NCBI RefSeq assembly: GCF_900115155.1
Contig: NZ_FOVM01000001.1
Span: forward strand, 372,001 to 436,000
Source of the DNA: Mycetocola miduiensis
GTDB taxonomy: Bacteria > Actinomycetota > Actinomycetes > Actinomycetales > Microbacteriaceae
Direction of reading: 5' to 3'
Length of the DNA: 64,000 nt
Numbering within the stretch: the first letter of the stretch is position 1; every line of letters starts with the position of its first letter. The position numbers and the translations under genes were made by a program. The notes beneath the pieces are model-generated. The model searched no databases. It saw only the letters and a program-made list of their open reading frames with translations, and was not told where the DNA came from. Positions 1,304-55,103 of the stretch are shown here, piece by piece.

Positions 1304-1343
1304 ACTTCCTCGCAAGAGTCCCCGCATCAGAAGGAGACCGACT

Positions 1344-2306: not shown

Positions 2307-2379
2307 CCGGAACGAGCCCCGTCCCCGCCTCCCTGCAGAAAGACTCGTACTTCTCCCGGCTGCATGATAGGCATGAGAC

Positions 2380-2958
2380 ATGACGCCGCAGTTGAGTATC
2401 ACCGGGGATCCTGACGCTGACGAGCTGCTCTCAGCGGATCCGCTGGCCCTTCTGATCGGCATGCTGCTCGACCAGCAGGTTCCGATGGAGACGGCGTTCG
2501 CCGGGCCGGCGAAGATCCGCGACCGGCTGGGTTCGTTCGACGCGGCGACGATTGCGGACCAGGACCCCGAGGCGTTCGTCGAGCTGTGCCGCACCCCGCC
2601 CGCAGTCCACCGGTATCCCGGGAACATGGCCGCGCGCATCCAGGCGCTGTGCCGCAGCCTCGTCGACAACTGGGACGGCGACGCATCCGCCCTCTGGACA
2701 CGCGGCGACCCGGACGGGCACGAGGTATATCGGCGGCTCACCGCCCTCCCCGGCTTCGGCGAGCAGAAAGCGCGCATCTTCGTGGCGCTTCTGGGCAAGC
2801 AGTACGGCTTCACCGGATCCGGCTGGCAAGACGCGGCGGGATCGTACGGCGACGATGGAAGCTACCGGTCCGTCGCCGACATAGTCGACGCCGAGTCGCT
2901 CTCCCGCGTGCGGGAGACCAAACGTGCGGCTAAGGCCGCCGCGAAGAAAGCGACCTGA
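2380..2958 (+). CDS. HhH-GPD family base-excision repair protein
   Basis: A 192-residue helix-hairpin-helix DNA glycosylase-like protein typical of actinomycetes. The N-terminal part (DPLALLIGMLLDQQVPMETAF) matches the first HhH-GPD helices, and the hairpin LTALPGFGEQKARIFVALLGKQYG lies near residues 118-142. The family excises damaged bases in other bacteria, but the catalytic aspartate is not evident after the hairpin, so enzymatic activity is uncertain. The C-terminal 20 residues are rich in Lys, Arg and Ala and could bind DNA. A universal stress protein gene follows after 25 bases and is probably co-transcribed. Confidence 0.75.
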   Translation: MTPQLSITGDPDADELLSADPLALLIGMLLDQQVPMETAFAGPAKIRDRLGSFDAATIADQDPEAFVELCRTPPAVHRYPGNMAARIQALCRSLVDNWDGDASALWTRGDPDGHEVYRRLTALPGFGEQKARIFVALLGKQYGFTGSGWQDAAGSYGDDGSYRSVADIVDAESLSRVRETKRAAKAAAKKAT

Positions 2959-2983
2959 ACACCAAACAGAGAGCGGGGACGCA

Positions 2984-3829
2984 ATGGCCACACGGATGCT
3001 GGTCGGTGTCAAGAATGTCGACACCGGCAGGATGGCGGTGCGCTGGGCAGCCGAGCGAGCGAGTTCACGCGGCCTCGGGCTCCACCTGGTTCACATCGTC
3101 GACGAGGGGATGCGTCGAGCCGGCAGCACAGGGCTGCTGGATGCCGCTCGATCCGACGTGGACCAGATGCTCGCGTCGGCGGTGGAATTGGCACGGTCGG
3201 TGGCACCGGAGCTCGATGTGACAACGGAAACCCGGGTGGGGGACCCTCAGGCGGACCTCATCACTCTCTCGCAGGATGCCGACATGGTCGTCGTGGGCAG
3301 CGACTCGACCAGCAAGGACACGTCGCGCAGGCACGGCAACCGAGGCTTCCGCATCGCGGCGGCAAGCACCACGCCGGTGGCGGTCATTCCGGCCATCGAC
3401 GTCGCCGGCCGCGAAGGGGTCGTCGCCGGGGTCGACGGTTCACGGATCTCCGATCGTGCCCTCGTGTTCGCCGCGGAGGAGGCCGACCGGCTCGGCCAGC
3501 CCCTCATCGCCGTGAATGCCTGGCCGAACCCGGTCGTCTACGGCTACGACCTGGCCTTCCCCGTCGAGTACGTCGAGGATCTGACCGAGATCGGCAACCA
3601 GACTCTAGACCGTGCGCTGGACAACGTGATGGGAGCGCATCCGAACGTTCCGGTACACCGGATCGTCACCGAAGGGGACCCGATCACGGTCCTCTCCGAG
3701 GTGGCGGAGGATGCCTCGCTCATCGTGGTCGGAAGTCACGGCCGGGGCGCGGTCGCCCGCTTCCTGCTCGGTTCCGTGAGTCACGGCATCCTCGCCCGGC
3801 TCTCCGGGCCGACGGTTGTGGTCCGCTGA
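2984..3829 (+). CDS. Universal stress protein with two UspA domains
   Basis: A 281-residue cytoplasmic protein made of two tandem UspA folds (about residues 1-135 and 140-281). The second domain ends with VVGSHGRGAVARFLLGSVSHGIL, the ATP-binding GxxG-9x-G(S/T) motif; the first domain has a degenerate copy (VVGSDSTSKDTSRRHGNRGF). Two-domain Usp proteins of this type are common in actinomycetes and bind ATP during energy or oxygen limitation. The frame is open 60 bases further upstream, inside the previous gene; the ATG preceded by GAGCGGGGA was chosen because the UspA fold begins immediately after it. It ends four bases before the convergent tadA gene. Confidence 0.85.
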   Translation: MATRMLVGVKNVDTGRMAVRWAAERASSRGLGLHLVHIVDEGMRRAGSTGLLDAARSDVDQMLASAVELARSVAPELDVTTETRVGDPQADLITLSQDADMVVVGSDSTSKDTSRRHGNRGFRIAAASTTPVAVIPAIDVAGREGVVAGVDGSRISDRALVFAAEEADRLGQPLIAVNAWPNPVVYGYDLAFPVEYVEDLTEIGNQTLDRALDNVMGAHPNVPVHRIVTEGDPITVLSEVAEDASLIVVGSHGRGAVARFLLGSVSHGILARLSGPTVVVR

Positions 3830-41589: not shown

Positions 41590-41724
41590 GGGTTGTCTCC
41601 ACAGTGGTTGGGACTGCGGCAACGACAACTCCGACGATGCCAGGGCGGACCCGGTCAGTCTGCCATACCGACTCGGGGGTTTCCCTGAGAAACGTGTGAT
41701 CCAGCTGGCGACACTCGAGGGGAG

Positions 41725-42089: not shown

Positions 42090-43148
42090 TCACACGGTGG
42101 CGGGTTCGCCGTGCTGCGCCGATACCCGCGCAGCATCCATGATTTTCAATGTCCGGAGTCCAGAGAGCCCATCGGGTTGCGGGATCATGGAAGGGCGAAT
42201 GCCCGGCGTCGGTTTACCTGAGTGCCGAACCGCATCGAGGAACGTCCTCAGTAGTAGCTCATCGAGGTCAGCGCCAATGCCCAAATAGATCTGGCCGTCT
42301 GGTCCGGATCCTCCTACGTGGCTGGCGAACGGCGCTATCTCTGCGGATCCATGCGATCCGGTCACTTGAAAAGTGAGGCCGCCCCATGTGGGTGCTGTGT
42401 CAGGCTCGCTCCAGGAGCAGTCGATGCTGGCAACGAGTCCACTTCCGTACTCAATGCTCACCAGGCCGCCGGTTTCGACAGCAACCCTCTTGTCGGCGTG
42501 GAGCACCTGGTTTGCGACTGCGTAGACCTTCACGGCTGGCTCGCCTTCAGTGAGCACGTCGATTAGGTCTGCGCAATGAACGACGTGGTCGACCAGCGCT
42601 CCTCCTCCTGCCGCTACCGGATCGACGAACCATTCGCGGGAATCCAACGGGACCTTTCCATTGTTGGTTCCGCTGACCGAAAGCGGGATGCCCAGACTCC
42701 CGGAATCTACCAACTGCTTCAGCTCACGGAACGCGGGAGAGAACCGCACGGGGTAGGCAAGCATGAGAATAGAACCGGCCCTTTCACATGCCGCGATCAT
42801 CGCTTCACCGTCTGCGACTTCTGTCGCGAGCGGCTTTTCGCACAGAATGTGAACGCCAGCGTGCGCCGCCCGCTCCACGAGCTCTCGATGGCGCGAGTTT
42901 TCGCTCGTGATTATTACTGCGTCTGGCTCCCAAGCAAACAGGTCCTCGTAAGTCTCCGCGTACTCGACGCCGTTTCTTCGTGCGAACGCGCGACCTCGGA
43001 GTTCCCGGGTGGGGGCGGACTTGTGGTCGGGATCGGACGCTAACAGTTCCACGCCGTTCATCTTTTGCAGGGCGCGGATGTAAGCGGATGCGTGGACGTG
43101 GGCGAAGGAGGCGATCGCGACTTTGAGGGGGCGCCCTGATGGAGTCAT
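42090..43148 (-). CDS. Gfo/Idh/MocA oxidoreductase, type A copy 1
   Basis: A 352-residue NAD(P)-dependent sugar dehydrogenase-fold protein. The catalytic-lysine motif CEKPLATEVADGEAMIAA is near residue 98, and the C-terminal domain has GTNNGKVPLDSREWFVDPVAAGGGALVDHVVHCADLI. The nucleotide loop is unusual: instead of GxGxxG it reads VAIASFAHVHASAY. It is the paralogue of the protein at 50792 (shared SFAH-HA, ASDP, CEKPLAT, TNNGK, WFVD, CSWS-PD). It overlaps the type B gene by four bases and is last in the divergent left arm. Substrate unknown. Confidence 0.85.
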   Translation of the reverse strand: MTPSGRPLKVAIASFAHVHASAYIRALQKMNGVELLASDPDHKSAPTRELRGRAFARRNGVEYAETYEDLFAWEPDAVIITSENSRHRELVERAAHAGVHILCEKPLATEVADGEAMIAACERAGSILMLAYPVRFSPAFRELKQLVDSGSLGIPLSVSGTNNGKVPLDSREWFVDPVAAGGGALVDHVVHCADLIDVLTEGEPAVKVYAVANQVLHADKRVAVETGGLVSIEYGSGLVASIDCSWSEPDTAPTWGGLTFQVTGSHGSAEIAPFASHVGGSGPDGQIYLGIGADLDELLLRTFLDAVRHSGKPTPGIRPSMIPQPDGLSGLRTLKIMDAARVSAQHGEPATV

Positions 43149-44191
43149 CGCACTGCCATTTCTGCTTGAGACGCGTCGTGGAGTTGCGTGACCACGCCAC
43201 TTGAGATGGCCCGCGAGACTGCCTCAGCGAGCCGCACCGCTTCCACCCCGTCTTCACACGTCACCCGCGGGTCGAGGGTCGGCCGAAGCTGAAGAAAAGC
43301 TTCGAGCTCGGAAAGGTATGGATTGTGTTGAGCTGCTGCCAACGCGCGGCGGACGAGCCGTGGGCTTCCACCGGCATCGGGAATGTCAATCGATAGCTCA
43401 GAGATCTGGCGGGAGTCGTGGCGGATCACTCCAAGGTCTCCGGCGATGGAGAACGAGCTGAAGAATTGGGTTCCGATCGGTCCCCACGTCGCTGTTACTT
43501 GCGAGATCGCTCCGCTGGCGTGGGTCAAGGTGGCGTGGACGGTGCAGATGCCGGATGCGTCGCCGGGAACGGGCCTGCTCCGGACCGCGTAGACACTATC
43601 GACGGCACCGCACATCCACCGGGCTTGATCGAGATCGTGAATCATCAGGTCGAAGACGATTCCGCCAGAGCGCGCATCATCTGAGAGCCAGCTGCCAGGG
43701 AATGGCGCAGCGGTGCTGCGGTGAAATCGAGCTACCGCCACCTGCCCGATCCGGCCTTTTTGGATGGCTCGGTGAGCGGCAATGTTTGGTTTGGTGAACC
43801 GTACGACGTGGGCGGGGAACACAGTTCTGCCATATAGTTCCGCGGCTGTTTGCACGGCGAGGGCAGAACTGGTCGACAGAGCCAAAGGTTTTTCGCAAAC
43901 CACATCGTGCCCTGCCTCGATCGCAGTGACAGCGAATTCGGCGTGCGTGTCGCTGGGGGTAACGATGTCTACGAAGTCAACGCGTGAAAGGAGTTGCTCC
44001 ATGGAACTGGCAGTCCTGACACCGTGACGTCCCGCCAACTCTGCGGCTCCCTCGTGGGCGAAGACAATCACCGACGCGCCGAGCTGGCCCCATGCGGCCA
44101 TGTGCGCGCGCCCCATTCTGCCGGCGCCGATCAATCCAACGAGGCGAGGCTTCGCCCCGGCGTCCGCCAGCGGGCCGTTCGTTCTACTCAT
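43145..44191 (-). CDS. Gfo/Idh/MocA oxidoreductase, type B copy 1
   Basis: A 348-residue oxidoreductase with a classical Rossmann loop GLIGAGRMGRAHMAAW and the lysine motif VCEKPLALSTSSALA. The C-terminal domain contains PAHVVRFTKPNIAAHRAI, VARFHRSTAAPFPGSWL and DLMIHDLDQARWM, all shared with the type B protein at 49794. Enzymes of this fold oxidise sugar or polyol hydroxyls, often at C3. The gene lies between the ROK regulator (8-base overlap) and the type A gene (ATGA overlap), so the three are one transcript. The ATG at 44191 starts at the family boundary. Confidence 0.85.
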   Translation of the reverse strand: MSRTNGPLADAGAKPRLVGLIGAGRMGRAHMAAWGQLGASVIVFAHEGAAELAGRHGVRTASSMEQLLSRVDFVDIVTPSDTHAEFAVTAIEAGHDVVCEKPLALSTSSALAVQTAAELYGRTVFPAHVVRFTKPNIAAHRAIQKGRIGQVAVARFHRSTAAPFPGSWLSDDARSGGIVFDLMIHDLDQARWMCGAVDSVYAVRSRPVPGDASGICTVHATLTHASGAISQVTATWGPIGTQFFSSFSIAGDLGVIRHDSRQISELSIDIPDAGGSPRLVRRALAAAQHNPYLSELEAFLQLRPTLDPRVTCEDGVEAVRLAEAVSRAISSGVVTQLHDASQAEMAVR

Positions 44192-45431
44192 GACTAGGCA
44201 CTTTCTGCGTTCTCCCCGTGAGAGGCGTCGTTTGGGCGGCTGGTGTTTGGCGAATCGTTGGAGAGTTATCAGCCCGAACTTCTGAAATGTCTGGCACCGG
44301 TACCCCTTCGATGCCGAACAACTGGCGCGAGCTTTCATGGAAGCCGAGGGCCAATGCCCCACGCAGAATGCTCTCCGCGCCCACGGTCGAGGCGAGCACG
44401 TCCGGCTTGAGGTCGAGAAGAATGAGTCGGCGGACTTCCGTTCGTACCGCTGTTATGAATTCCCCGGATAGGTCGGAAGCGGGCAACTCTCCACCGATAA
44501 CGATCACATCCGGGTCGAAGACGAGTGAGACTGTCGCGATCCGCGTGGCTATCTCGGTGACGAACCTGGCCCACTCGGCGTGCGCGTCTGAATCTCCGCG
44601 TTTGACCATTGAAAGGATGGCGGCGGTTGATTCAGCGCCGGTCCACGTCAGGTTGCCCTTGACAGAATTGGTGGTCCACCGGAACCCCCGAAGGCTGGCA
44701 AGTTCACCGGCGCTACGGTGTGCTCCCTGATGGATCTTTCCGTCGATTGTCAACGCGAACGCTATTCGCGTGCCGATGTGGAAGTAAAGGATGTTTCCAG
44801 CAAGCTGAGCGCTTCCGAAATGGTGTTCGGCGTAGGCGGCAAGTTTGGTGTCGTTTTCCAGGAAGACGTGGCACCCGAGCTCATTTCCCAGATGTCGGGC
44901 CAGATCCGTGTTGTTCCACTCGGGCACGAAATAGCTCTGTGCCACCTTCCCGTCGAGCCCGATGGTGCCCGACACGGCAACGCATGCTGCTCGAAGCTTC
45001 GACGCCGGGGTCCCTGCGTCGGCTAACGCGTCTCGGACAGTGCTGACCACGGTGTCGACTCGCTGTGATGCCGTCGGCGATCCGGAGATTTCGCGACTTG
45101 CGCGACCCACCACCCTTCCGCGCAGGTCCGCTAACATCACCGTCACGTTGGACGGGCCTGAGTCGATTCCCGCGACCAATGCGTTCAGCGACTGGAACTG
45201 GAATCGCCGAGCTGGTCGGCCTCCGTTGGCTCGGCTTGAGCCAGCCGGAACTTCGGTGAGCGTTCCGCCTTCTTCCAGTTCGTTGATCACCGCGTCAATG
45301 GTTGGGCGAGATAGCCCGGTCCGCTGGACGAGGTCACTGATCGTCAGCGGCTCCTCGGAAGCACGGAAAACATGGATGCATGTCAGTGCATTCGCATGCC
45401 GGATGTCCGCGGAACTTGGTGGAGCGTCCAT
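44184..45431 (-). CDS. ROK family transcriptional regulator
   Basis: A 415-residue repressor. Residues 10-75 are a winged helix (TISDLVQRTGLSRPTIDAVINELEEGG), then the sugar-kinase-like ROK fold with VAGIDSGPSNVTVMLADLRGRVVG, VAVSGTIGLDGKVAQ, FLENDTKLAAYAEHHFG and IVIGGELPASDLS. The zinc motif CxCGxxGC of many ROK proteins is absent, which fits a pure regulator that binds a sugar or sugar phosphate rather than a kinase. It is divergent from the ABC importer genes and heads the left arm containing two oxidoreductase genes, so it very probably controls both arms from the 221-base spacer. Confidence 0.88.
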   Translation of the reverse strand: MDAPPSSADIRHANALTCIHVFRASEEPLTISDLVQRTGLSRPTIDAVINELEEGGTLTEVPAGSSRANGGRPARRFQFQSLNALVAGIDSGPSNVTVMLADLRGRVVGRASREISGSPTASQRVDTVVSTVRDALADAGTPASKLRAACVAVSGTIGLDGKVAQSYFVPEWNNTDLARHLGNELGCHVFLENDTKLAAYAEHHFGSAQLAGNILYFHIGTRIAFALTIDGKIHQGAHRSAGELASLRGFRWTTNSVKGNLTWTGAESTAAILSMVKRGDSDAHAEWARFVTEIATRIATVSLVFDPDVIVIGGELPASDLSGEFITAVRTEVRRLILLDLKPDVLASTVGAESILRGALALGFHESSRQLFGIEGVPVPDISEVRADNSPTIRQTPAAQTTPLTGRTQKVPSHE

Positions 45432-45652
45432 ATCACCGCCTCAATTTCTCGCCCTACGGCGGCCTCGTGTAGGACACAACGTAGCATTCACAGGGAGGTT
45501 TCGTAACCCCGTCTTCGCTAACCCTCCTGCTTGTACGTTTGGCGACGAAAAAGCAGGATCGTACGTCGAAACAGAATTTTCTCGATTAGGTATAGACGTT
45601 TCATAACCACCCTGCAATACTCTGAGGAAATGATCTGTCCAAAGGAGGACCA
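45432..45652. promoter_or_regulatory. Divergent control region of the oxidoreductase/ABC locus
   Basis: This AT-richer spacer lies between the ROK gene and the binding-protein gene. An imperfect inverted repeat CAGGGAGGTT (45491-45500) and AACCCTCCTG (45520-45529), with TTCGTAAC/TTCGCTAAC direct repeats inside, is a candidate ROK operator. A possible promoter for the importer is TCGAAA (45566-45571) and TATAGA (45591-45596). AAAGGAGG precedes the GTG start at 45653. Confidence 0.45.
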
Positions 45653-46951
45653 GTGAGCACCACACCAAAGAAACTGAGATACGCCGGCGTCGCGGCCACA
45701 GCGGGGCTCGCTGTCCTGCTGTCCGGTTGCGCTAGTGGCAACCCCGCGGCCGGAGGGAAGACGGAGATCGTCTTTTCCTATCTGTGGGGAGGCGCCGAAG
45801 GCGATGCGCTCGCTGAGCTCGTCGACGATTTCAACGAGTCCCAGGACGACATCGTTGTCAAGGGCGTCTCATCGCCGGACGTGCAGAAGCAGCTCACGCA
45901 GATGAGCAGCAGCAAGGGAGCGTTCGACATCTCCGATAATTTCGGATACGCGACAGCCTCTCTTGCGTCCAAGGGCGTCCTCGAACCGCTCGACGAATAC
46001 ATCGAGCGTGACGACTATGACCTCTCCGACTTCATCAAGCCTGCGATGGATCAAGCCGTCTATGACGGTAAGACCTATGCCATTCCTCTGGGCGTGCACA
46101 CTCACCAGTTGATGTACAACAAGACTTTGCTCGCGGAGGCCGGCATCACTGAACCTCCAACCACAATCGAAGAGTGGGCGGAGATGATCCCGAAGCTCAC
46201 AAAGAAGGATGAGGCGGGGAACATCACCCAGCTCGGCTACGGGCAGGTCGACGCACCGCGATCATTCGTCTCGCTTGCCTTCATGATGGGCGGAAGTTTC
46301 TGGGGCGAAGGCGACGAGGCCCCCGCACCGAACAACGATGGAACTCAGGCTGCACTCGACTTCTACTATGACACCGTCATCGAGCCCAACGGTGCGGACC
46401 GGGTGCAAACTTTCATGTCCGGTTTCGGAGAGTTGTACTCTCCCGAGCACCCGTTCTATAAGGGCCAGATTGCGACGCACATCGACGGCGCGAACCAGGT
46501 GACGATGATCGAGCAGCTCGCGCCGGATCTCGACTACGGAGTCGTACCCATCCCTCACCCGGAGGCTCACCCCGAGCGGGCTGGTACGTCGGAGATTACG
46601 AACTCCACCTACTTCATCCCTTCCAACTCGAAGCACAAAGATGAGGCTTGGGAGTTCATGAAATATCTACTCGACAATGAGCCACTGGGAAACTTCACGA
46701 AGGCGATCTCCAACCTGCCAGCCCGACAGTCGCTGGCCAGCGACCCGATCTACTCGGAGCTCCCTGAGCAATACCAGGTGTTCGCGGACTCCCTTTCGAG
46801 CGAAAATCTGGCCTCTATCCCGGCCGTTCCATGGGCGGCCGAATACCGCGCCGATCTCAAGCTCGAGCTCGATAAGGTCAACACCGGGCAGAGCACCCCT
46901 GAAGAAGTACTCAAGGCGCTCGAAGAACGAGCAGGAAACTACGGCAAGTGA
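45653..46951 (+). CDS. ABC sugar importer substrate-binding lipoprotein
   Basis: A 432-residue family 1 extracellular binding protein. The signal sequence ends in the lipobox LLSGC with lipidated Cys26, so it is anchored to the outer face of the membrane. The mature part has the usual fold (IVFSYLWGGAEGDALAELVDDFNESQDDI; PLGVHTHQLMYNKTLLAEAGI; GQIATHIDGANQVTMI; FIPSNSKHKDEAWEFMKYLLDNEP). The ligand is probably a mono- or oligosaccharide or polyol. It starts with GTG behind AAAGGAGG and overlaps the first permease gene by four bases. Confidence 0.92.
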   Translation: MSTTPKKLRYAGVAATAGLAVLLSGCASGNPAAGGKTEIVFSYLWGGAEGDALAELVDDFNESQDDIVVKGVSSPDVQKQLTQMSSSKGAFDISDNFGYATASLASKGVLEPLDEYIERDDYDLSDFIKPAMDQAVYDGKTYAIPLGVHTHQLMYNKTLLAEAGITEPPTTIEEWAEMIPKLTKKDEAGNITQLGYGQVDAPRSFVSLAFMMGGSFWGEGDEAPAPNNDGTQAALDFYYDTVIEPNGADRVQTFMSGFGELYSPEHPFYKGQIATHIDGANQVTMIEQLAPDLDYGVVPIPHPEAHPERAGTSEITNSTYFIPSNSKHKDEAWEFMKYLLDNEPLGNFTKAISNLPARQSLASDPIYSELPEQYQVFADSLSSENLASIPAVPWAAEYRADLKLELDKVNTGQSTPEEVLKALEERAGNYGK

Positions 46952-47928
46952 GTATCCAAGCCCGCCTGCCCCTTCGGCCTTCGTCATCGACGAAGGCCGA
47001 AGGGGCCGCGCCTCAGCAGGGGTCCGGTCGTCGGCGCACCGCACGACGTGACCAGAAATACGGGCTTCTTTTCGCCTCCCCGTGGCTGATCGGATTCGTC
47101 GCATTCATCGGCCTACCGATCATCGCGTCGGCCTTCTACAGCTTCACGAGCTTCAATCTCTTCCAGTCACCAGAGTTCGTCGGATTCGCGAATTACTCCC
47201 AGCTACTAGCGGACGACCGCTTCTATAAAGCTGTCTTCAATACGTTCTTCCTTGCTTTGTTCGGAGTGCCTCTCGGACTCGCCCTCGCTTTGGCCCTCGC
47301 ACTCCTACTCAATGTGAACGTGAAGGGCCAGCCTCTCTACCGGGCGGTCATCTACTTGCCCACCATTATTCCGACGATCGTCGTCGTCTACGTCTGGCGG
47401 TGGCTCCTGAACGCCCAGTACGGGTTTATCAATGAAGCCATCTCGACGATCGGATTGCACCGACCACTGTGGTTGGACGATCCGATGTGGACGAAGCCCG
47501 CGATTTTGATCATCGGCTTCTGGACTATTGGCGGGACCGCGGTCATCTATCTGGCAGCCCTCAAAGAAGTTCCAGCCGAGCTGCACGAAGCAGCGAAAGT
47601 TGACGGGGCTGGCCCCTTCCTTCGCTTCAGACACATCGTCTGGCCAGCCATCACCCCGGTGACCCTTTTCCAGGTGGTCGTTTCGCTCATCGCTTATCTG
47701 CAGATGTTCACCCAGCCGTACCTCTTGGCCCAGGAAGGACGCAACGATGTTGGCGCCGGACCGAACGATTCGATGCTGACCTACGCGATGTATGTCTATC
47801 AGAATGCGTTCGTCTATTTGAAAATGGGCTACGCCTCCGCGCTGGCTTGGGTGCTCTTCATCCTCATCCTCGTCCTCACCTTCATCATCCTCAAGTCGTC
47901 GAAGCGGTGGGTCCACTATGGCAATTGA
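46948..47928 (+). CDS. ABC sugar importer permease, MalF/UgpA type
   Basis: A 326-residue CUT1 permease with six membrane helices. The first is FASPWLIGFVAFIGLPIIASAFYSF and the ATPase-docking EAA loop is EVPAELHEAAKVDGAGPFLRFRHIVWPAI. The N-terminal 38 residues are non-conserved and basic and are encoded in part by a perfect 18-bp inverted repeat. The GTG start overlaps the binding-protein stop; no other in-frame start precedes the first helix. It pairs with the permease at 47918. Confidence 0.9.
   Translation: MSIQARLPLRPSSSTKAEGAAPQQGSGRRRTARRDQKYGLLFASPWLIGFVAFIGLPIIASAFYSFTSFNLFQSPEFVGFANYSQLLADDRFYKAVFNTFFLALFGVPLGLALALALALLLNVNVKGQPLYRAVIYLPTIIPTIVVVYVWRWLLNAQYGFINEAISTIGLHRPLWLDDPMWTKPAILIIGFWTIGGTAVIYLAALKEVPAELHEAAKVDGAGPFLRFRHIVWPAITPVTLFQVVVSLIAYLQMFTQPYLLAQEGRNDVGAGPNDSMLTYAMYVYQNAFVYLKMGYASALAWVLFILILVLTFIILKSSKRWVHYGN
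46968..47006 (+). promoter_or_regulatory. Perfect 18-bp hairpin at the binding-protein/permease junction
   Basis: Arms 46968-46985 and 46989-47006 are perfectly complementary around the 3-base loop ATC (GCCCCTTCGGCCTTCGTC and its complement). It begins 17 bases after the binding-protein stop codon but inside the overlapping permease reading frame. It could terminate part of the transcripts or protect the binding-protein mRNA, giving more binding protein than permease. Confidence 0.75.
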
Positions 47929-48772
47929 CACTGTGCGCCGGGGGCCAAGCGCCCGCAAGGCCAGCCGCAGCCTGCTCGCTTACGCAGGCATTCTGGCGGT
48001 CGTCGGAATCTTCATATTCCCCTTCCTCACCATGATTACGACCTCGTTCAAATTACCGACGGACGTCTTCACATTGCCGCCGGCTCTGCTCCCCGAGACG
48101 TGGACGTTTGAGAACTTCGGTTTGGCCCTGGAGGCGATGCCCATCGATCGGTACCTGTGGAACACAATCGTGGTGGCAAGCCTGAGCGTGATCGGGACTT
48201 TGGTTTCCTGCCCGTTGGTCGCCTATGCGCTCGCCAAATTCGAATGGCGGGGCCGCGGGGTCGTGTTCTTCATCGTGCTCGCAACGATGATGCTCCCCCC
48301 ACAGGTGACGATGATCCCGCTGTACTTGGTGTTCGACACTGTTGGGCTCACGGGTACGATTTGGCCGTTGGTTCTCCCCACGTTCTTCGGGACACCCTTC
48401 TTCATTTTCTTGATGCGCCAATTCATGATGAACGTCCCCGACGATCTGATCGCAGCCGCCCGGCTCGATGGAGCATCTGAGTTCCGCATCTACTGGAGCA
48501 TCGTCCTACCGCTCGCGAAACCCGCTCTCGCGACGATCGGCATCTTTCAGTTCATGTGGGCCTGGACAGACTTCCTAAACCCGTTGATTTATCTGAACGA
48601 TGAGGCCAACTACACGCTGTCGCTTGGCCTCTACAACTTCTTCTCGGAGAACGGAATCGCCTGGGGCCCGCTAATGGCGGCCAGCGTTGTGTTCACGGTT
48701 CCTGCACTGATTGTGTTCCTGATCGGCCAGCGCTTTTTCCTCAGCGGTCTCGCGACCAGCGGGCTCAAGTAG
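47918..48772 (+). CDS. ABC sugar importer permease, MalG/UgpE type
   Basis: A 284-residue CUT1 permease with six membrane helices. KASRSLLAYAGILAVVGIFIFPFLTMITTSFK is the first, and the EAA loop is NVPDDLIAAARLDGASEFRIYWSIVLPLAKPA. It overlaps the first permease gene by 11 bases. No ATPase gene occurs in the locus; as is usual in actinomycetes, an unlinked MsiK/UgpC-type ATPase would energise this importer. The oxidoreductase genes follow after 32 bases on the same strand. Confidence 0.9.
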   Translation: MAIDTVRRGPSARKASRSLLAYAGILAVVGIFIFPFLTMITTSFKLPTDVFTLPPALLPETWTFENFGLALEAMPIDRYLWNTIVVASLSVIGTLVSCPLVAYALAKFEWRGRGVVFFIVLATMMLPPQVTMIPLYLVFDTVGLTGTIWPLVLPTFFGTPFFIFLMRQFMMNVPDDLIAAARLDGASEFRIYWSIVLPLAKPALATIGIFQFMWAWTDFLNPLIYLNDEANYTLSLGLYNFFSENGIAWGPLMAASVVFTVPALIVFLIGQRFFLSGLATSGLK

Positions 48773-48804
48773 TCGCGCGTCAAAAACGGAAGGCAGTAAA
48801 ACTC

Positions 48805-49797
48805 ATGAAAGTTGCGGTCATCGGAGGCGGCGCGATTGGCACCGTCCATGCGAAAGCGTATGTCGCGGCAGGCGCCCAACTGGTGGGGGTCGTCGAGCCC
48901 GTAACCGCGGTGGGAGAACGTTTCTCCACCGCATTCGGAGTACCCGTTTTCGACACCCTGGATTCCCTGCTTGCGGGTGATAATCCGCCTGAGGCAATCA
49001 GTATTTGCACCCCGCCGTTCACCCACCGCCAGCTCGCGGAAGTCGCAATGAAAGCTGGCGTTCACGTGCTCTGCGAAAAGCCAATGGCGCACACAATCGA
49101 AGATGCTCGAGCCCTCCACCGTTCCGCCGAAGCATCGAACGTGACATTCGCGACGGCGTATTGTCACCGATTCCAGCCGGAACTCGAACTTATTCACTCT
49201 CATATCGAAACCGGTGAAATCGGAACAGTCCGGACATTCTTCAACGCCTTTTCCGGGCATCAGGACGACATCGAAACACGATGGTTCGGTCGGAAAGAGC
49301 TCGCCGGAGGAGGGGCACTGATCGATGCCGGAATTCATTCAATCGACATCTTTCGTTACCTGTGTGGCGAAGTCGATTCTGCGACGGGCACGCTTGCCAC
49401 AGTGCTCGACGGAACAGGACTCGAAGTCGAGCACACAGCCGCCATGACTTTGCGCTCGGTCACCCATGTCATTGGAACCATCGAGTGCTCCTGGAAGTCA
49501 CCGACCGGGCAATCGATTGTTCGAGTTGAAGGTTCCGAAGGCTCACTGACCTTCGACTATGCCCGCCAGGGGCAGGTCGCAAAGCAATCCCGAAGCGGTG
49601 AGGTGGAAATCCTCCAGGTGAGCCCAGGAAACCGGTTCGAGCGCGAAATCGCGGATTTCATCCGCTCGGTCACAGTCGGAATGCGCCCAAGAACGGGCTC
49701 TCTCGACGGGCTCGTGGGCGTTGCGGTCCTCGACGAGGTCTACAGCCAGAGTGACAACCGTTCTCTGGGCAGCTCGATCCTCAATGAGGTAGCGTGA
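48805..49797 (+). CDS. Gfo/Idh/MocA oxidoreductase, type C (single copy)
   Basis: A 330-residue NAD(P)-dependent dehydrogenase with the Rossmann loop VAVIGGGAIGTVHAKAYVAAG, the lysine motif VLCEKPMAHTIEDARAL, and the C-terminal domain with GGGALIDAGIHSIDIFRYLCGEVD carrying the catalytic Asp/His pattern of the family. It is related to, but clearly distinct from, the four type A and B proteins, being closer to mainstream inositol- or glucose-fructose-type enzymes. The ribosome site is GGAAGG. Its stop overlaps the type B gene by four bases, so three oxidoreductases follow the importer in one transcript. Confidence 0.88.
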   Translation: MKVAVIGGGAIGTVHAKAYVAAGAQLVGVVEPVTAVGERFSTAFGVPVFDTLDSLLAGDNPPEAISICTPPFTHRQLAEVAMKAGVHVLCEKPMAHTIEDARALHRSAEASNVTFATAYCHRFQPELELIHSHIETGEIGTVRTFFNAFSGHQDDIETRWFGRKELAGGGALIDAGIHSIDIFRYLCGEVDSATGTLATVLDGTGLEVEHTAAMTLRSVTHVIGTIECSWKSPTGQSIVRVEGSEGSLTFDYARQGQVAKQSRSGEVEILQVSPGNRFEREIADFIRSVTVGMRPRTGSLDGLVGVAVLDEVYSQSDNRSLGSSILNEVA

Positions 49798-50795
49798 CCG
49801 CCCCTGGCCCCAGCGTCGGAATAGTCGGAGCGGGGAACATGGCGCGCGCGCATGCCGCGGCCTGGGAGGCAATCGGGGCAGAACTCTATTTCTATGCCCC
49901 GTCGGGCAGCGCAGCAGTCGCGGATGATTTCGGTGGCACGGAATGCTCCTCTTTGGCGGCGCTTTACGCGGCCGCAGAACTTGTGGACATCTGCGCTCCG
50001 ACGCCACACCACCTGAACCTTGCCCGATCGGCCGTCGAAGCCCATCGCCACGTTCTCTGTGAGAAGCCGCTCTCCCGAAGCGCTACCGAGGGCCGACAGA
50101 TGCTCGCCCTCGCTGCCGCCCACCGACGACTGCTGATGCCCGCTCACGTTGTGCGCTATTTCCCCCAGTATGCGGCCGCGCACCAGGCAGTTGAAGACGG
50201 ACGCCTCGGTGCGATGGCTGTGCTTCGCTTCCACCGAAGTGGAGCGACCCCGCAACGGCCCTGGTTCACCGACGACAACGCCTCCGGCGGGCTCATCCTC
50301 GATCAGTTGGTCCACGACATAGACCAGGCCGTGTGGATGGCCGGACCGGTGGCGACCGTCTACGCCTCGGAAAACCGGAGCGAGAGGAGTGGTGCACAGG
50401 CGCAGACTGCCCATGTCATCCTCACCCACCGCTCCGGGGCGGTTTCCCATTGCCGCGGCCACTGGGGTGCCGAGGGAACGGCGTTCTCATTCGGCTTCGA
50501 TATCGCCGGCACGCTGGGAACGCTGACGTACGATTCCCGCAAGAACACCGGCTTCGAAATGAGCACGACGCGTGGGGCCTCGCCTACGGAGGATGGTTTC
50601 ATGCCCGATCTCGGCTACTTCACCAATCCATACGAAGTGCAGGCACGGGATTTCCTGCAAGCGGCACAGACGGGTTCATCCCCGAGAACCAGTGCGGAGG
50701 AGGGCCTGTACGCCGTTCAACTCGCCCTCGCGGCTATCCGCTCGGTCGCAGAGCACCGGGCCATCGACGTCGACGACGAAGGAGACCACTCATGA
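49794..50795 (+). CDS. Gfo/Idh/MocA oxidoreductase, type B copy 2
   Basis: A 333-residue oxidoreductase with loop VGIVGAGNMARAHAAAW, lysine motif VLCEKPLSRSATEGRQ, and C-terminal landmarks PAHVVRYFPQYAAAHQAV, LRFHRSGATPQRPWFTDD and DQLVHDIDQAVWM. These are shared with the type B protein at 43145-44191. It starts with GTG overlapping the type C stop and ends overlapping the type A gene by four bases, exactly as in the left arm. The substrate is unknown; overlap with type A implies that the two act together. Confidence 0.87.
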   Translation: MTAPGPSVGIVGAGNMARAHAAAWEAIGAELYFYAPSGSAAVADDFGGTECSSLAALYAAAELVDICAPTPHHLNLARSAVEAHRHVLCEKPLSRSATEGRQMLALAAAHRRLLMPAHVVRYFPQYAAAHQAVEDGRLGAMAVLRFHRSGATPQRPWFTDDNASGGLILDQLVHDIDQAVWMAGPVATVYASENRSERSGAQAQTAHVILTHRSGAVSHCRGHWGAEGTAFSFGFDIAGTLGTLTYDSRKNTGFEMSTTRGASPTEDGFMPDLGYFTNPYEVQARDFLQAAQTGSSPRTSAEEGLYAVQLALAAIRSVAEHRAIDVDDEGDHS

Positions 50796-51841
50796 CCACC
50801 GGACGCCTCAAGGTCGGAATCATGTCATTCGCGCACCCGCATGCCGGGAACTACATCAGTGCTCTCCTTTCTCGTGGCGATGTCGACATCCTCGCATCAG
50901 ATCCCGGGGCAGCCACCGCACCGTCGGGCGAGATACGAGGCGCCGAATACGCCGCTCAGCACGGAGCACCATACGTCGACTCGTACGAAGAACTTTTTCG
51001 TTGGCAACCTGACGCGGTCATCGTGTGTAGCGAGAATGCGCACCACCGTGTCGACGCAGAAGCCGGGGCGAGGGCTGGCGCTCACGTGCTGTGCGAGAAG
51101 CCCCTCGCGACCACGGTGGCAGACGCACGTGCCATCGTTGACGCATGTGAGGAGGCTGGTGTTCTCCTCATGACCGCGTTTCCGATGCGCTTCACTCCGA
51201 TGTTCGAAGCCGCCCGCGCTGCGATCCGGGACGGCCGGATCGGTGAGATCGTCGGGGCTACCGGAACGAACAACGGAAAGCTCCCGGTCGGAGGGCGCTC
51301 CTGGTTCGTCGACAGTGAACTCGCCGGCGGCGGAGCTCTCGTCGATCTCACGGTTCACATCGCGGATCTCCTCGATGCTGTCCTCGCCCCTGAGGTTCCC
51401 GAGCTTGTGTACGCGGCAACGAACCGGATCCTGCATTCAGAGAACAGCGCAGTCACGAACGAGACGGGAGGCTTGGTCAACGTCACGTATTCGGACGGCA
51501 CCATCGCAACGATCGATTGCTCGTGGAGCCAGCCAGATTCTGCGGCCAGTTGGGGCGGCCTGACCCTGCAACTGATCGGGACGGAAGGTTCGATAGACAT
51601 CGACCCCTTCGCCCTCCGTGTCGAAGGGGTCGACGAAGCGAACGCCAACGGATTCTGGCTGGGGTACGGTGCCAACAACAGTGTGCCGCTAATCAACGAA
51701 TTCATCACTGCTATTCGCGACGGACGACAGCCCGAGCCCAGCGGCCAAGCAGGACTCCGCGCGGTAGAGATTGTCGCTGCAGCACAAGAGTCGGCGGCGA
51801 CAAGGAGCGCAGTCAGCTTCGGCGAAGCACCATCCGACTAG
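50792..51841 (+). CDS. Gfo/Idh/MocA oxidoreductase, type A copy 2
   Basis: A 349-residue protein paralogous to the one at 42090-43148. It has the same atypical nucleotide loop (VGIMSFAHPHAGNY), VLCEKPLATTVADARAI as lysine motif, TGTNNGKLPVGGRSWFVD and AGGGALVDLTVHIADLLD. The ATG lies behind AAGGAG and overlaps the type B gene. The in-frame sequence after its TAG stop continues open as the remnant of a metalloprotease gene, showing that this is the right edge of the locus. Confidence 0.87.
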   Translation: MTTGRLKVGIMSFAHPHAGNYISALLSRGDVDILASDPGAATAPSGEIRGAEYAAQHGAPYVDSYEELFRWQPDAVIVCSENAHHRVDAEAGARAGAHVLCEKPLATTVADARAIVDACEEAGVLLMTAFPMRFTPMFEAARAAIRDGRIGEIVGATGTNNGKLPVGGRSWFVDSELAGGGALVDLTVHIADLLDAVLAPEVPELVYAATNRILHSENSAVTNETGGLVNVTYSDGTIATIDCSWSQPDSAASWGGLTLQLIGTEGSIDIDPFALRVEGVDEANANGFWLGYGANNSVPLINEFITAIRDGRQPEPSGQAGLRAVEIVAAAQESAATRSAVSFGEAPSD

Positions 51842-52174
51842 GAACAAGGAAGAGAAGCAAGCCGGCGACACCGGGCTGGATCGTGGCGTTCACCTATCTG
51901 CGGGACCAAAGGGTGCCCGAACATCATCGTCCGTTCAGATCTCGCGCCGAGTGCGGGCGTTGACCCGTACAGCCCCGAGTACCTCTACTTTGTCACGCTC
52001 CATGAACTGGGTCATGCGCTTGGGCTCGCGCATCCCACGAACCTTCTCCAGAGCACGGACCTGATGCGTTACGGCTGGAATCGAGCCAACGGAATAACCC
52101 CAGTGTTGTCGCACTACGACGTCGATCCCTCGCCTATCTCTTCTCCTGGGCTCTCAACGGGATGCCGCCGTTAG
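51842..52174 (+). pseudogene. 3' remnant of a metzincin (matrixin-like) metalloprotease gene
   Basis: The open frame after the type A stop encodes, from about 51890, ICGTKGCPNIIVRSDL, then VTLHELGHALGLAHP at 51994-52038, a complete HExxHxxGxxH zinc motif of metzincins, and DLMRYGW resembling the Met-turn region further on. It ends at TAG 52172-52174. There is no start codon, ribosome site, signal peptide or propeptide, so it is a 5'-truncated fragment. The breakpoint lies at or just after 51842 and probably marks where the oxidoreductase locus was joined. Confidence 0.7.
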
Positions 52175-52263
52175 CGCCGGGACGCAGCACCCTTGATAGC
52201 ACTTTCGACTGCTCGGCAGCTTGACACGGTGAGCGACTGACCACGTTCGCCGTGTGACGAAAG

Positions 52264-52296
52264 CGAAAAACCCCCGCTTGTCAGCGAGGGTTTCGG
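52264..52296 (-). terminator. Rho-independent terminator of tRNA-Ser(GCU)
   Basis: On the minus strand AACCCTCGCT, loop GACA and AGCGGGGGTT pair fully in RNA (one U-G wobble), followed by a T-run TTTTTCG. It lies directly downstream of the tRNA gene. Confidence 0.8.
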
Positions 52297-52299
52297 TGG

Positions 52300-52388
52300 C
52301 GGAGACGGCGGGATTTGAACCCGCGGTCCCCTTACGAGGACTCCACCTTAGCAGGGTGGTGCACTAGGCCGAACTATGCGACGTCTCC
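52300..52388 (-). tRNA. tRNA-Ser (anticodon GCU)
   Basis: An 89-base type II tRNA: acceptor GGAGACG/CGTCTCC with discriminator G, anticodon loop CTGCTAA containing GCT, long variable arm GAGTCCTCGTAAGGGGAC, and T-loop GGTTCAAATCC. No CCA is encoded. The metalloprotease remnant and the carbohydrate locus end close to its 3' side. Confidence 0.93.
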
Positions 52389-52458: not shown

Positions 52459-53754
52459 TCAGTTGGCGACGGAACAGGTCTCGTCGAGGGCGGTCTGCCC
52501 CTGCAACCCCTCGATCACATCCGTTGTCGGAGTTGGAGCCGGCGTCGCACCCGGGGTCGTGCCCGGCGTGGAGCCTGGCGTCGTACCCGGTGCCGTAGAG
52601 GGCGTTGAAGGCGGGGTTGAAGGCGGGGTTGTCGGCGCGGTTGTCGGCGCCGGCGCGTCGGGGTTCTGCTCGACGCCCTCGCGCTCCGCAGTGGGATCGG
52701 GTAGGAACGGCTGGTCTGCGGCGATCCGTTCGAACAGTTCATCCGCGAGGTCCTGTAGCGGGATGACCCGGTTCGGGTTGTCGGGATCGTACATAACCGG
52801 GTACTGGATGAGATTCAGCTTGTCGAGGTCGATCGTCTGGAACGTGCGCGCCATGGCGACCATCTGGGTGGGGTTGGTCAGCGACGTGGACAGGTATACG
52901 TGCTCCGACGCCACCCGGGCAAGCGAGTAGAGCTTGGTCACATCCGTCAACGTGTCATCACTCTTGATCTTGCGGATCAGTGAGGAGATGTACTGCTGCT
53001 GGTTCGCGATCCGGGCGAGGTCGCTGCCGTCGCCGACGCCGTGACGGTTCCGGAGAAAGGCGAGCGCGGTCGCACCGGAGATGACACTGGTTCCCGCGGG
53101 CAGGTCGAGGCCGGAGAGGGGGTCCTTGATCGGGCCGGAGAGGCAGACCGGGACGCCGCCGACGGCATCCGTCATCTGGACGACGGAACCGAACGACATT
53201 TGCGCCGCATATTCGATGTCGAGTCCGGTCAAGTCCGAGACGGTCGCGACGACGCAGGCGAGACCGCCGCGTTCGAAGGCCGCGTTGAGCTGCAGCAGGC
53301 GCCGGGCTTCGTGGGTCTCTCCCGTTTCCGGGTCCGTGCAAGTCGGATGCGGGATGAGAAGGTCGCGCGGGAAGCTGACGACGACCGCCGTCGAGTGGTC
53401 TTCGGAAACATGCAGGAGCATGTTGACGTCGTTGAGCGTGACTTCCCGTTCCCCGAACGCGTTTCCCTGGGCCGGGTCGTTGTCTGCACCGACGACGAGG
53501 AGGTTGAACCCGCCTTCGAACGCGTCGATGTTCGGCACCGGTGGAAGCTCGGTGCTGTCCGGCCGGCTGATGTCGATGGCGTTGGAGTTCACGTTCGACG
53601 TGATGTCCCAGACCGCCCAGACGGCGACGGATGCTCCGCTCGCGAGAACGACGGCGAGGACGACCGCGACGCCGCGGAGCAGCGTCGACCAGGCGCTGTG
53701 GCGCGGCTGGCGCCCATGCTTGATCACCGTCCCAGCCGGTCTCGACCCGCTCAC
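52459..53754 (-). CDS. LytR-CpsA-Psr (LCP) family cell-wall ligase
   Basis: A 431-residue membrane-anchored enzyme: one N-terminal helix (GVAVVLAVVLASGASVAVWAVW), an extracellular LCP domain with conserved arginines in VVSFPRDLLIP and FLRNRHGVGDGSDLARIANQQQYI, and a Pro/Thr-rich low-complexity stretch (about residues 365-410) before a final Cys-containing end ETCSVAN. LCP proteins attach secondary polymers to peptidoglycan. A GTG start is used. It follows the paralogue at 53802 by 47 bases in the same direction. Confidence 0.9.
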   Translation of the reverse strand: MSGSRPAGTVIKHGRQPRHSAWSTLLRGVAVVLAVVLASGASVAVWAVWDITSNVNSNAIDISRPDSTELPPVPNIDAFEGGFNLLVVGADNDPAQGNAFGEREVTLNDVNMLLHVSEDHSTAVVVSFPRDLLIPHPTCTDPETGETHEARRLLQLNAAFERGGLACVVATVSDLTGLDIEYAAQMSFGSVVQMTDAVGGVPVCLSGPIKDPLSGLDLPAGTSVISGATALAFLRNRHGVGDGSDLARIANQQQYISSLIRKIKSDDTLTDVTKLYSLARVASEHVYLSTSLTNPTQMVAMARTFQTIDLDKLNLIQYPVMYDPDNPNRVIPLQDLADELFERIAADQPFLPDPTAEREGVEQNPDAPAPTTAPTTPPSTPPSTPSTAPGTTPGSTPGTTPGATPAPTPTTDVIEGLQGQTALDETCSVAN

Positions 53755-53801: not shown

Positions 53802-55103
53802 TTACTCGTTGCCCTTCGAGCAGGTGTAGTCGCCGGCCGTCTGGCCCTGCACCGACTTGTCGAGGACAACACCCGGTGCGCTTGCTTCGGTGGTCGGTGC
53901 CGTGGTGGGCGCTGTCGTGTCCTCTGGCGCAGGGGTCGTTCCCTCTGGCGTGGGGCTCGGCTGTGCCGGCTCCTGCGTTTCGTTCTCGGGCGCGTTGGGG
54001 TCGAGAACCGATCCTGGACCGGTCTCACCGCTGAGCGAGAGGGGCTCGTCGGTGGAGAGGGCGTCGAACAGTTCCTCAGCCGGCCCCTTGAGCGGGAGCA
54101 CACCTTCGTAGCCGTTGATGTCGCCGTACTCGGTCGGGTACTGCGCGAAGACCACCTGGTCGAGCGGGATGTCCTTCATCGCCATGGCAATGGAAACCAT
54201 CGTGTTGATGTTGGACAGGCTCGTCGATAGCGTCATGTTGCTCGCGGCCGCCTTGGCGATGCCGAAGAGCTTCGACGGGTTCGTCAGCGTCTCGCTGCTC
54301 TTCAGCGTGCGGACGAGTGAGGAGAGGAACACCTGCTGGTTGCTGATGCGGCCGAGGTCCGAACCGTCACCGACACCGTGACGGGTGCGCAGAAACTGGA
54401 GAGCCGACATGCCTTCGAGGGTGTGTGTTCCAGCGTCGAGGTAGGTCTGGGTGTAGTCATCCGCGATCGGTTCTGCGACACAGACATCCACGCCACCGAC
54501 AGCGGTGGACAGTTCGATGACTCCGTTGAACTGTACTTCTGCGGCGAACGGGATGCTCAGGCCGGTCAGTTTTTCGACGGTGAGGACGGTGCAGGCGAGG
54601 CCACCGTATGAGAGCGTCGTGTTGATCTTCTGCGCCGACATGGCGTTGTACGTTCCGCCGTCCTCCTTCGGGCAGGCGGGAATCGGAACGAACATGTCGC
54701 GGGGAAAACTGACAACGGTCGCAGACGAATGGTCCTCGGAGATGTGCAGGAGCATGGTTACGTCGTTGAGGACGGCGGTTTCTTTTTTAGGATCACCGAA
54801 GAGGTTGGCATCCTGACCCTGCCGGCTGTCGCTGCCGACCAGGAGGAGGTTTACCCCACCTTCGATGGCGTCGATGTCTGGGGCGGATACTCCGGGGGTC
54901 TCATTCGCGAGGGTGACCGGCGGAGCGACGCTCGACGCGATGTCCCACACGGCGTACGCAGCGATGGCGGATCCGCTGACCAGGACCACAGCGAGCACCG
55001 CAGCGACGAACCTGGCGATCACTCCCGCTGTGCTCGAGCGACGGAGCTGACCGTGCCGCACGGTCGACGAGGAACGCCGGTGGCGGCGGACAGGTTCGCT
55101 CAT
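53802..55103 (-). CDS. LytR-CpsA-Psr (LCP) family cell-wall ligase
   Basis: A 433-residue paralogue of the preceding protein with the same build: N-terminal helix (FVAAVLAVVLVSGSAIAAYAVWDIAS), LCP core with VVSFPRDMFVP and FLRTRHGVGDGSDLGRISNQQVFL, a Pro/Thr/Glu-rich region from about residue 370, and a C-terminal Cys in DYTCSKGNE. Both copies share the unusual tail, with a QGQTA motif before the final Cys, so they arose by tandem duplication. It lies 40 bases after tRNA-Ser(UGA) on the same strand. Confidence 0.9.
   Translation of the reverse strand: MSEPVRRHRRSSSTVRHGQLRRSSTAGVIARFVAAVLAVVLVSGSAIAAYAVWDIASSVAPPVTLANETPGVSAPDIDAIEGGVNLLLVGSDSRQGQDANLFGDPKKETAVLNDVTMLLHISEDHSSATVVSFPRDMFVPIPACPKEDGGTYNAMSAQKINTTLSYGGLACTVLTVEKLTGLSIPFAAEVQFNGVIELSTAVGGVDVCVAEPIADDYTQTYLDAGTHTLEGMSALQFLRTRHGVGDGSDLGRISNQQVFLSSLVRTLKSSETLTNPSKLFGIAKAAASNMTLSTSLSNINTMVSIAMAMKDIPLDQVVFAQYPTEYGDINGYEGVLPLKGPAEELFDALSTDEPLSLSGETGPGSVLDPNAPENETQEPAQPSPTPEGTTPAPEDTTAPTTAPTTEASAPGVVLDKSVQGQTAGDYTCSKGNE

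Follow-up and report, generated by a model that had tools for sequence, protein, structure and literature searches.

A carbohydrate locus with two pairs of oxidoreductase genes

We analyzed a 64,000-nucleotide stretch of the Mycetocola miduiensis genome (contig NZ_FOVM01000001.1; hereafter the window, numbered from its first letter) and a locus of nine genes within it, at 42090-51841. As the original prediction had it, five Gfo/Idh/MocA family oxidoreductase genes stand here around a ROK-family regulator and a CUT1-type importer; Pfam matches and coordinates agree with this description, and all nine genes were confirmed where they had been placed. Four of the oxidoreductase genes make up two pairs, each of a type B and a type A gene (B1-A1 and B2-A2), and these pairs are the subject of this work. 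The features of the locus are as follows.

42090..43148, minus strand: A1, type A Gfo/Idh/MocA protein (putative subunit); SFAHVHA replaces GxGxxG, and the catalytic K, D and H are kept
43145..44191, minus strand: B1, type B (RifS-like) Gfo/Idh/MocA protein (putative subunit), with GxG and the catalytic K, D and H; 4-base overlap with A1
44184..45431, minus strand: ROK-family helix-turn-helix protein, putative transcriptional regulator; 8-base overlap with B1
45525..45558, no strand: inverted repeat in the divergent intergenic region; 14-nt arms, 86% complementary, 6-nt spacer
45653..46951, plus strand: solute-binding protein (SBP), sugar-type (CUT1-like)
46948..47928, plus strand: ABC permease 1
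47918..48772, plus strand: ABC permease 2
48805..49797, plus strand: C, Gfo/Idh/MocA oxidoreductase of a third kind that belongs to neither the A nor the B clade; best solved match by sequence 6nor (GenD2)
49794..50795, plus strand: B2, type B (RifS-like) protein (putative subunit); 4-base overlap with C and with A2
50792..51841, plus strand: A2, type A protein (putative subunit); SFAHPHA replaces GxGxxG
52297..52388, minus strand: tRNA-Ser(GCT), at the right edge of the presumed inserted segment

In both arms B precedes A with an overlap of exactly four bases, as had been noted. The two A proteins are 47.5% identical and the two B proteins 39.4%, which together with the presence of the originally quoted motifs in A1, B1, B2 and A2 bears out their description as paralogues; between types (A-B, A-C and B-C), every BLAST match is at 32% identity or less. 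All five oxidoreductases pass the Pfam cut-offs for PF01408 and PF22725, and the whole genome has 15 PF01408 matches. Also in line with the prediction, Pfam detects no hydrolase, kinase, isomerase or aldolase among the nine locus proteins. An ABC ATPase is likewise absent from the nine by Pfam; ATPase-domain matches of this class number 101 genome-wide, and we assume that the importer is served by a shared ATPase encoded elsewhere.

Type B and type A genes form an old and widespread pair

Among 299 genomes of the window organism's family, 29 (the window's own included) have a type A gene, and in all 28 foreign loci a type B gene lies directly upstream on the same strand, with the exact 4-base overlap in 18. 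One of these B frames (L038; locus labels L and genome labels G are ours) is called as only 106 amino acids. A wider set was assembled from plasmid loci (6 of 23 matching records) and from loci of named genomes (the best 80 of 581 confirmed stretches in a profile search). Here A proteins score at least 286 with the A profile and other family members below 200, barring one protein cut by a contig end. B lies directly before A in 34 of the 39 places where A occurs. Coming from these selected records, the count describes a sample, and some species may be represented in more than one of the three sets (family, wide and phylum). Of the 34, 33 have B upstream, 22 with a possible exact 4-base overlap, and a further pair (L100) is cut by a contig end. 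Finally, in a phylum sample of 396 genomes, A was found at E <= 1e-70 in nine, including the window's own, and B lies directly before A in 8/8 of the others. One of these eight pairs is split over contig ends, as B followed by a cut A; the same arrangement occurs in G482, whose A falls short of the threshold.

The hosts of the wide set span Actinomycetota, Deinococcota, Chloroflexota, Bacillota, Armatimonadota, haloarchaea and one bathyarchaeal assembly. B-A is thus an old gene pair of bacteria and archaea, in an arrangement far from chance. The notion of a two-gene cassette stands insofar as paralogous B and A units travel together in an importer-linked sugar locus; the cassette is not a local one, being a pair shared across domains.

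Several loci depart from the usual layout. In four family loci (L037-L040), the neighbors of B-A are not a CUT1-type importer but a cluster for an oligopeptide-type importer and a GNAT-like N-acyltransferase gene; the N-acyltransferase of L039 is PF18164/PF18082, and the genes of L038 look broken. The Haladaptatus halobius plasmid L064 has two divergent B-A pairs, at 1011-3019 (minus strand) and 6994-8999 (plus strand), echoing the arrangement in the window; genes for a PIG-L deacetylase and a PF01261 TIM-barrel protein separate them. In the genome that the window comes from, the B profile finds a third match, of 250 bits, on a different contig (G000:C6:161268-162248); matches to A number only two.

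Five A places of the wide set are without B. In two of them, from Bacillaceae, a protein of 233-244 amino acids occupies B's place before A (L063, 6764-7498; L094, 7306-8007). These short proteins have no significant Pfam or PDB match. A two-row alignment of them matches the C-terminal half of B with an hhalign E-value of 5.9e-5 and a probability of 65%, and A with E 0.0034 over 25 columns. They may be decayed B subunits that have shed the Rossmann half and the catalytic residues, which we offer as a lead, not as proof.

Both proteins keep catalytic residues, and A replaces the classical nucleotide-binding loop

B1, B2 and C carry the glycine-rich dinucleotide-binding fingerprint, in whose place A1 and A2 have SxAHxHA. 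In the Gfo/Idh/MocA superfamily, catalysis involves the lysine of an EKP motif and the aspartate and histidine of a D-x3-H pair. All three residues are invariant in 28/28 aligned A rows, as are A14, H15 and H17 in the loop that substitutes for GxGxxG. The same lysine, aspartate and histidine are invariant in 24/24 aligned B rows, in which the GxG glycines are conserved to at least 90%; the called B of L031 starts late and is without these glycines.

The predicted structure of A2 (predicted local distance difference test, pLDDT, 91.5) has a full Rossmann-like fold. Its match to NAD-bound GenD2 (6nor) extends over nearly the full chain (Z 38.0, 316 residues, 2.5 A, about 27% identity), and KanD2 (6jw6) is almost as close (Z 37.0, about 23% identity). 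Because the model keeps this fold and matches an NAD-bound protein, we do not claim that A has lost NAD binding. The C protein falls outside both the A and the B clade, on a long branch, in a tree that includes 22 control oxidoreductases, and its best match among solved sequences is again 6nor. Relatives of DgpA (which acts on C-glycosides), of NanOx and of an NAD-dependent sulfoquinovosidase appear in the structure match lists, though not as the nearest entries.

The B-A family includes a homologue pair of RifS-RifT from rifamycin biosynthesis

The nearest solved sequence to both B proteins is 8w9s_A (4.8e-47 for B1 and 5.1e-40 for B2; next best 8.8e-24 and 1.4e-27), which is also the nearest fold to the B2 model (1.4e-31). 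The entry names this chain an NADH-dependent dehydrogenase and holds RifT too; we infer that chain A is RifS and that the shared entry represents a complex. According to PMC7062684, rifS and rifT form an operon; cxmS and cxmT (327 and 323 amino acids) are described as rifS/rifT homologues (PMC4551226), and deletion of rifT is reported to lead to 8-deoxy-rifamycins (PMC7563148).

One locus of the phylum sample (L169, enlarged as L187) is a RifS-RifT locus, with a cytochrome P450 and a polyketide synthase downstream. Its T gene starts four bases before the end of the S gene, the same order and overlap as in B-A. The T protein matches the RifT chain in the PDB (8w9s_B) at 8.4e-68, has a loop of the A type (SLAHERA) and reaches 231 bits with the A profile versus 84 with the B profile. 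In a quick tree of 74 rows, the B clade takes in S (Shimodaira-Hasegawa-like approximate likelihood ratio test, SH-aLRT, 100) and the A clade takes in T (99). Each is sister, with support 99, to its counterpart in the pair of Streptomyces himastatinicus (L069), the only one of three Streptomyces pairs that was included in that tree. The simplest reading is that an importer-linked B-A pair was recruited to become the rifamycin enzyme. The L169 RifT homologue has lost all three catalytic residues: lysine reads glutamine, aspartate alanine and histidine tyrosine; the RifT chain in the PDB comprises only 256 residues.

Because a RifS-RifT homologue pair belongs to the family, we read B and A as two subunits. 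We consider it somewhat probable, from these sequence relationships, that the two proteins of each B-A unit form a single NAD(P)-linked oxidoreductase, comparable to RifS-RifT in type, which takes part in amino-sugar processing. The SBP and the permeases would import a sugar derivative. B would be the classical Gfo/Idh/MocA subunit with its nucleotide-binding fingerprint intact, and A its paralogous partner, with a Rossmann-like domain, a shortened SxAHxHA loop, and the lysine, aspartate and histidine, which the catabolic pairs aligned here retain. Ring hydroxyls of the imported compound would be oxidized and/or reduced by both pair enzymes (B2-A2 and B1-A1) and by C, and the product would then join an ordinary kinase/NagA/NagB route whose genes lie elsewhere. 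Both arms would be controlled by the ROK protein, whose gene heads the left arm, perhaps via the inverted repeat at 45525-45558, a candidate operator.

The original prediction instead envisaged several sequential redox steps by separate enzymes, and for B and A we consider two subunits of one enzyme the better reading, given the membership of RifS-RifT. It is rather unlikely, in our judgement, that B and A are separate homo-oligomers catalyzing consecutive steps, for example with B oxidizing and A reducing the same carbon in a redox-neutral epimerization, so that their co-inheritance would reflect pathway linkage and no complex. Such an arrangement would agree with the complete conservation of catalytic residues on both sides and with the full Rossmann-like domain of the A model. 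It fits less well with 8w9s, a solved entry that contains RifT alongside a RifS-like chain, and with the L169 RifT homologue, which is still paired despite its lost catalytic residues and is easier to understand as a subunit. Loss of the active site on one side with the pair kept, as in L169 T and perhaps in the B of Bacillaceae, is what would be expected of a two-subunit enzyme.

Other observations weigh against a two-subunit enzyme. By sequence and by fold, the nearest solved proteins to A are other family members and not RifT. The co-occurrence in 8w9s is read from the chain list of the entry, and the structures modelled here (A2 and B2) are single chains. Both halves can also occur singly, which favors separate enzymes. 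Nothing related lies upstream of A in the remaining three A places of the wide set, from one unclassified and two Chthonomonadaceae assemblies (L080, L084 and L090), and B-like genes scoring above 290 bits occur in genomes without A at E <= 1e-70 (L167, enlarged as L188, and L168). The B-like gene of L167/L188 (9105-10079), from the window's family, is followed by a short-chain dehydrogenase gene.

Neighboring genes suggest a role in amino-sugar catabolism

We compared the neighborhoods of 66 A loci with those of 48 control Gfo loci, taken from the other loci of the same profile scan. Genes for NagA, NagB, NanE or NagB-II-like proteins are present in 12/66 A loci and 0/48 control loci (Fisher p 0.0012); for kinase markers the counts are 28 A loci versus one control locus. 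Within the family set, 16/28 loci have a ROK protein that by its length is of kinase size, one of them checked by Pfam. At L063, NanE and a ROK protein follow A.

Single operons tell more, in loci that had been chosen blind to what surrounds B-A. Three of the eight phylum-sample loci were opened at length, and in two of them (L189 and L190) NagA, above its cut-off, lies in the B-A operon; the third, L191, has none of the amino-sugar markers. The order in L189 is GntR regulator, BadF-type ATPase family protein, NagA, SBP, two permeases, B, A and SIS protein, and in L190 it is BadF-type protein, SIS protein, NagA, SBP, two permeases, B, A and SIS protein. The BadF-type family includes sugar kinases, and the L189 protein is a putative kinase. 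If these putative assignments hold, L189 and L190 encode nearly every step needed to bring an imported N-acetylhexosamine into central metabolism, B-A being an extra one. Such neighbors suggest amino-sugar catabolism as the role of B-A; as Nag-type genes are missing locally, we extend the assignment to the window locus by analogy.

Several points count against this assignment. The markers were chosen from A loci after inspection, which biases the enrichment, and L049, L058 and L063 are among the 12. Related loci were counted as independent: in six of the 12 the marker is NagB, and these six come from genomes of the window's family that are related to one another. ROK regulators, too, are caught by the marker for ROK kinases. 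The SIS protein after A in L189 resembles GlmS (178 bits) and NagB-II (169.8 bits) but lies below every NCBIfam cut-off. Pfam finds no kinase, NagA or NagB among the nine proteins of the window locus, and the genome's single nagA match is on another contig. PIG-L deacetylases, which stand beside haloarchaeal pairs, are not enriched (3/38 wide loci, 0/28 family loci, 2/48 controls).

The substrate had originally been sought among deoxy-, anhydro- or C-glycosidic sugars and cyclitols. We saw no neighboring genes that support one of these, though no special search was made for them; amino-sugar genes were seen instead. Among known activities, levoglucosan dehydrogenase (NF052479) is matched best by C, at 104.9 bits against a cut-off of 650, and inositol 2-dehydrogenase IolG (TIGR04380) best by B1, at 131.2 bits against 355; no locus protein reaches the NCBIfam cut-off for disaccharide 3-dehydrogenase. 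An oxidative elimination of the levoglucosan or 3-keto-glycoside type, proceeding by C3 oxidation, beta-elimination, hydration and re-reduction, seems very unlikely to us. Levoglucosan loci do resemble the window locus in having an importer, a ROK regulator and several Gfo/Idh/MocA genes, according to PMC10066097, and the second-best solved match of C is levoglucosan dehydrogenase, 6a3f. Set against this, Pfam finds no PF01261 enzyme among the nine locus proteins, none of them reaches the LgdA cut-off, and TIM-barrel markers occur in at most 4/66 A loci.

Origin of the two pairs in the window

We built trees of 63 A rows and 62 B rows and compared path distances over 61, leaving out L095 (a long branch) and L038 (a fragment). 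The two trees have their main clades in common by eye, and the A and B distances are strongly correlated (Mantel r 0.93; 0/999 permutations came near, the maximum being 0.24). Curtobacterium loci nest among the rows of the window's family.

The two pairs of the window may stem from a duplication or from two acquisitions. The earlier proposal, that a B-A unit was duplicated as a whole within this lineage to serve two stereochemical variants of one substrate, we regard as unlikely. The tree tests do not reject a sister relationship: in the approximately unbiased (AU) test the p-value is 0.665 for A, the tree holding A1 and A2 together being even likelier, and 0.31 for A and B joined, and B1 and B2 are sisters with support 25. 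The two divergent pairs of Haladaptatus halobius are a similar case. What speaks against duplication is the deep divergence (1.6 and 3.1 changes per site) and the fact that, among the matches listed, A1 is 59% identical to the A of L046 (61% over kept columns) versus 47.5% to A2. Nor do the accessory genes point to one source: among the matches listed, the window's ROK protein most resembles its counterparts in operons of the order ROK>SBP>P1>P2>B>A (213 bits, L033), and the SBP of the window most resembles those in loci of the ROK-kinase type (up to 126 bits, L047). The window locus is possibly a mosaic of different operon types.

The locus probably lies in an insertion beside a tRNA gene

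The genes flanking the locus, which we take to be DedA-like and LytR-CpsA-Psr-like, were both found in 5/5 same-genus genomes sampled. In four of these the flank matches are about 340-440 bases apart with tRNA-Ser(GCT) between them, compared with about 10.9 kb in the window; the fifth genome, G086, has about 2.3 kb at the site. Alignment to the four empty-site genomes breaks off near 41,640-41,690 and restarts near 52,260-52,300. The G+C content is 0.575-0.65 in the island genes versus 0.66 in the flanks, and none of the five genomes has a type A gene at E <= 1e-40. Because the site is empty in four same-genus genomes, the G+C content is lower and A is absent from all five, the locus is best read as an insertion of about 10.6 kb beside the tRNA-Ser gene. 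BLAST of the left against the right island edge revealed no att-site repeat above noise (best 11 nt, E 0.17).

Between A2 and the tRNA-Ser gene, at 51900-52180, what looks by eye like a gene fragment retains parts of a zinc metalloprotease-like frame, including a HELGHALGLAHP-like stretch. Two adjacent paralogous genes, about 47% identical, lie at 52459-53727 and 53802-55022, and this pair is kept in 5/5 same-genus genomes.

Discussion

The Gfo/Idh/MocA superfamily and RifS-RifT are already known. In the literature we met with no account that treats the pair generally as a two-subunit oxidoreductase, or that traces RifS-RifT back to catabolism; the slashed family name could not be searched for. 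We put forward a broader proposal tentatively, as one that is more doubtful than the two-subunit reading itself. B-A might be a widespread, unnamed two-subunit oxidoreductase that serves amino-sugar catabolism in bacteria and archaea, with two complete and different active sites, one of them without the classical NAD fingerprint. The subunits might pass a keto intermediate between them and bring about a net redox-neutral change, for example epimerizing or oxidatively unlocking an N-acetylhexosamine derivative. RifS-RifT would then derive from an actinobacterial copy whose T site decayed upon recruitment, and the B side would have decayed in Bacillaceae.

If this is true, many genes annotated only as 'Gfo/Idh/MocA family oxidoreductase' need to be studied as pairs, and screens of single proteins would miss their activity. 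The 8w9s entry would be a solved structural template for B-A pairs, and a step of rifamycin biosynthesis would have a catabolic origin. The family would also offer a natural example of a duplicated enzyme pair whose active site may have been lost from one half in some lineages and from the other half in others.

Among known systems, the catabolism of N-acetylglucosamine (GlcNAc) by a kinase, NagA and NagB is linked to B-A by gene neighborhood: a minority of B-A loci have these genes alongside, and in L189 and L190 they belong to the B-A operon. To our knowledge the canonical GlcNAc route needs no oxidoreductase, so B-A would be an added step. The aminoglycoside oxidoreductases GenD2 and KanD2 (6nor and 6jw6) are the nearest folds to the A2 model, and 6nor is the nearest solved sequence to C; unlike A, they presumably have a normal glycine-rich loop, and we take them to be single-gene biosynthetic enzymes. 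Levoglucosan degradation (LgdA-LgdB1-LgdB2-LgdC) likewise combines an importer, a ROK regulator in some loci and Gfo/Idh/MocA oxidoreductases, according to PMC10066097, whereas the window locus has paired B-A genes in place of the PF01261 enzyme and LgdA. RifS-RifT has the same gene order, S followed by T and overlapping it by four bases in L169, and its S and T homologues belong to the B and A clades, respectively. RifS-RifT differs in its polyketide substrate and biosynthetic cluster, whereas the window pairs are catalytically intact and importer-linked, and by Pfam none of the nine locus proteins is encoded by a polyketide gene, which does not fit a role with an ansamycin precursor. Thus, the window pair may work like RifS-RifT at the level of its subunits, yet it is no rifamycin enzyme.

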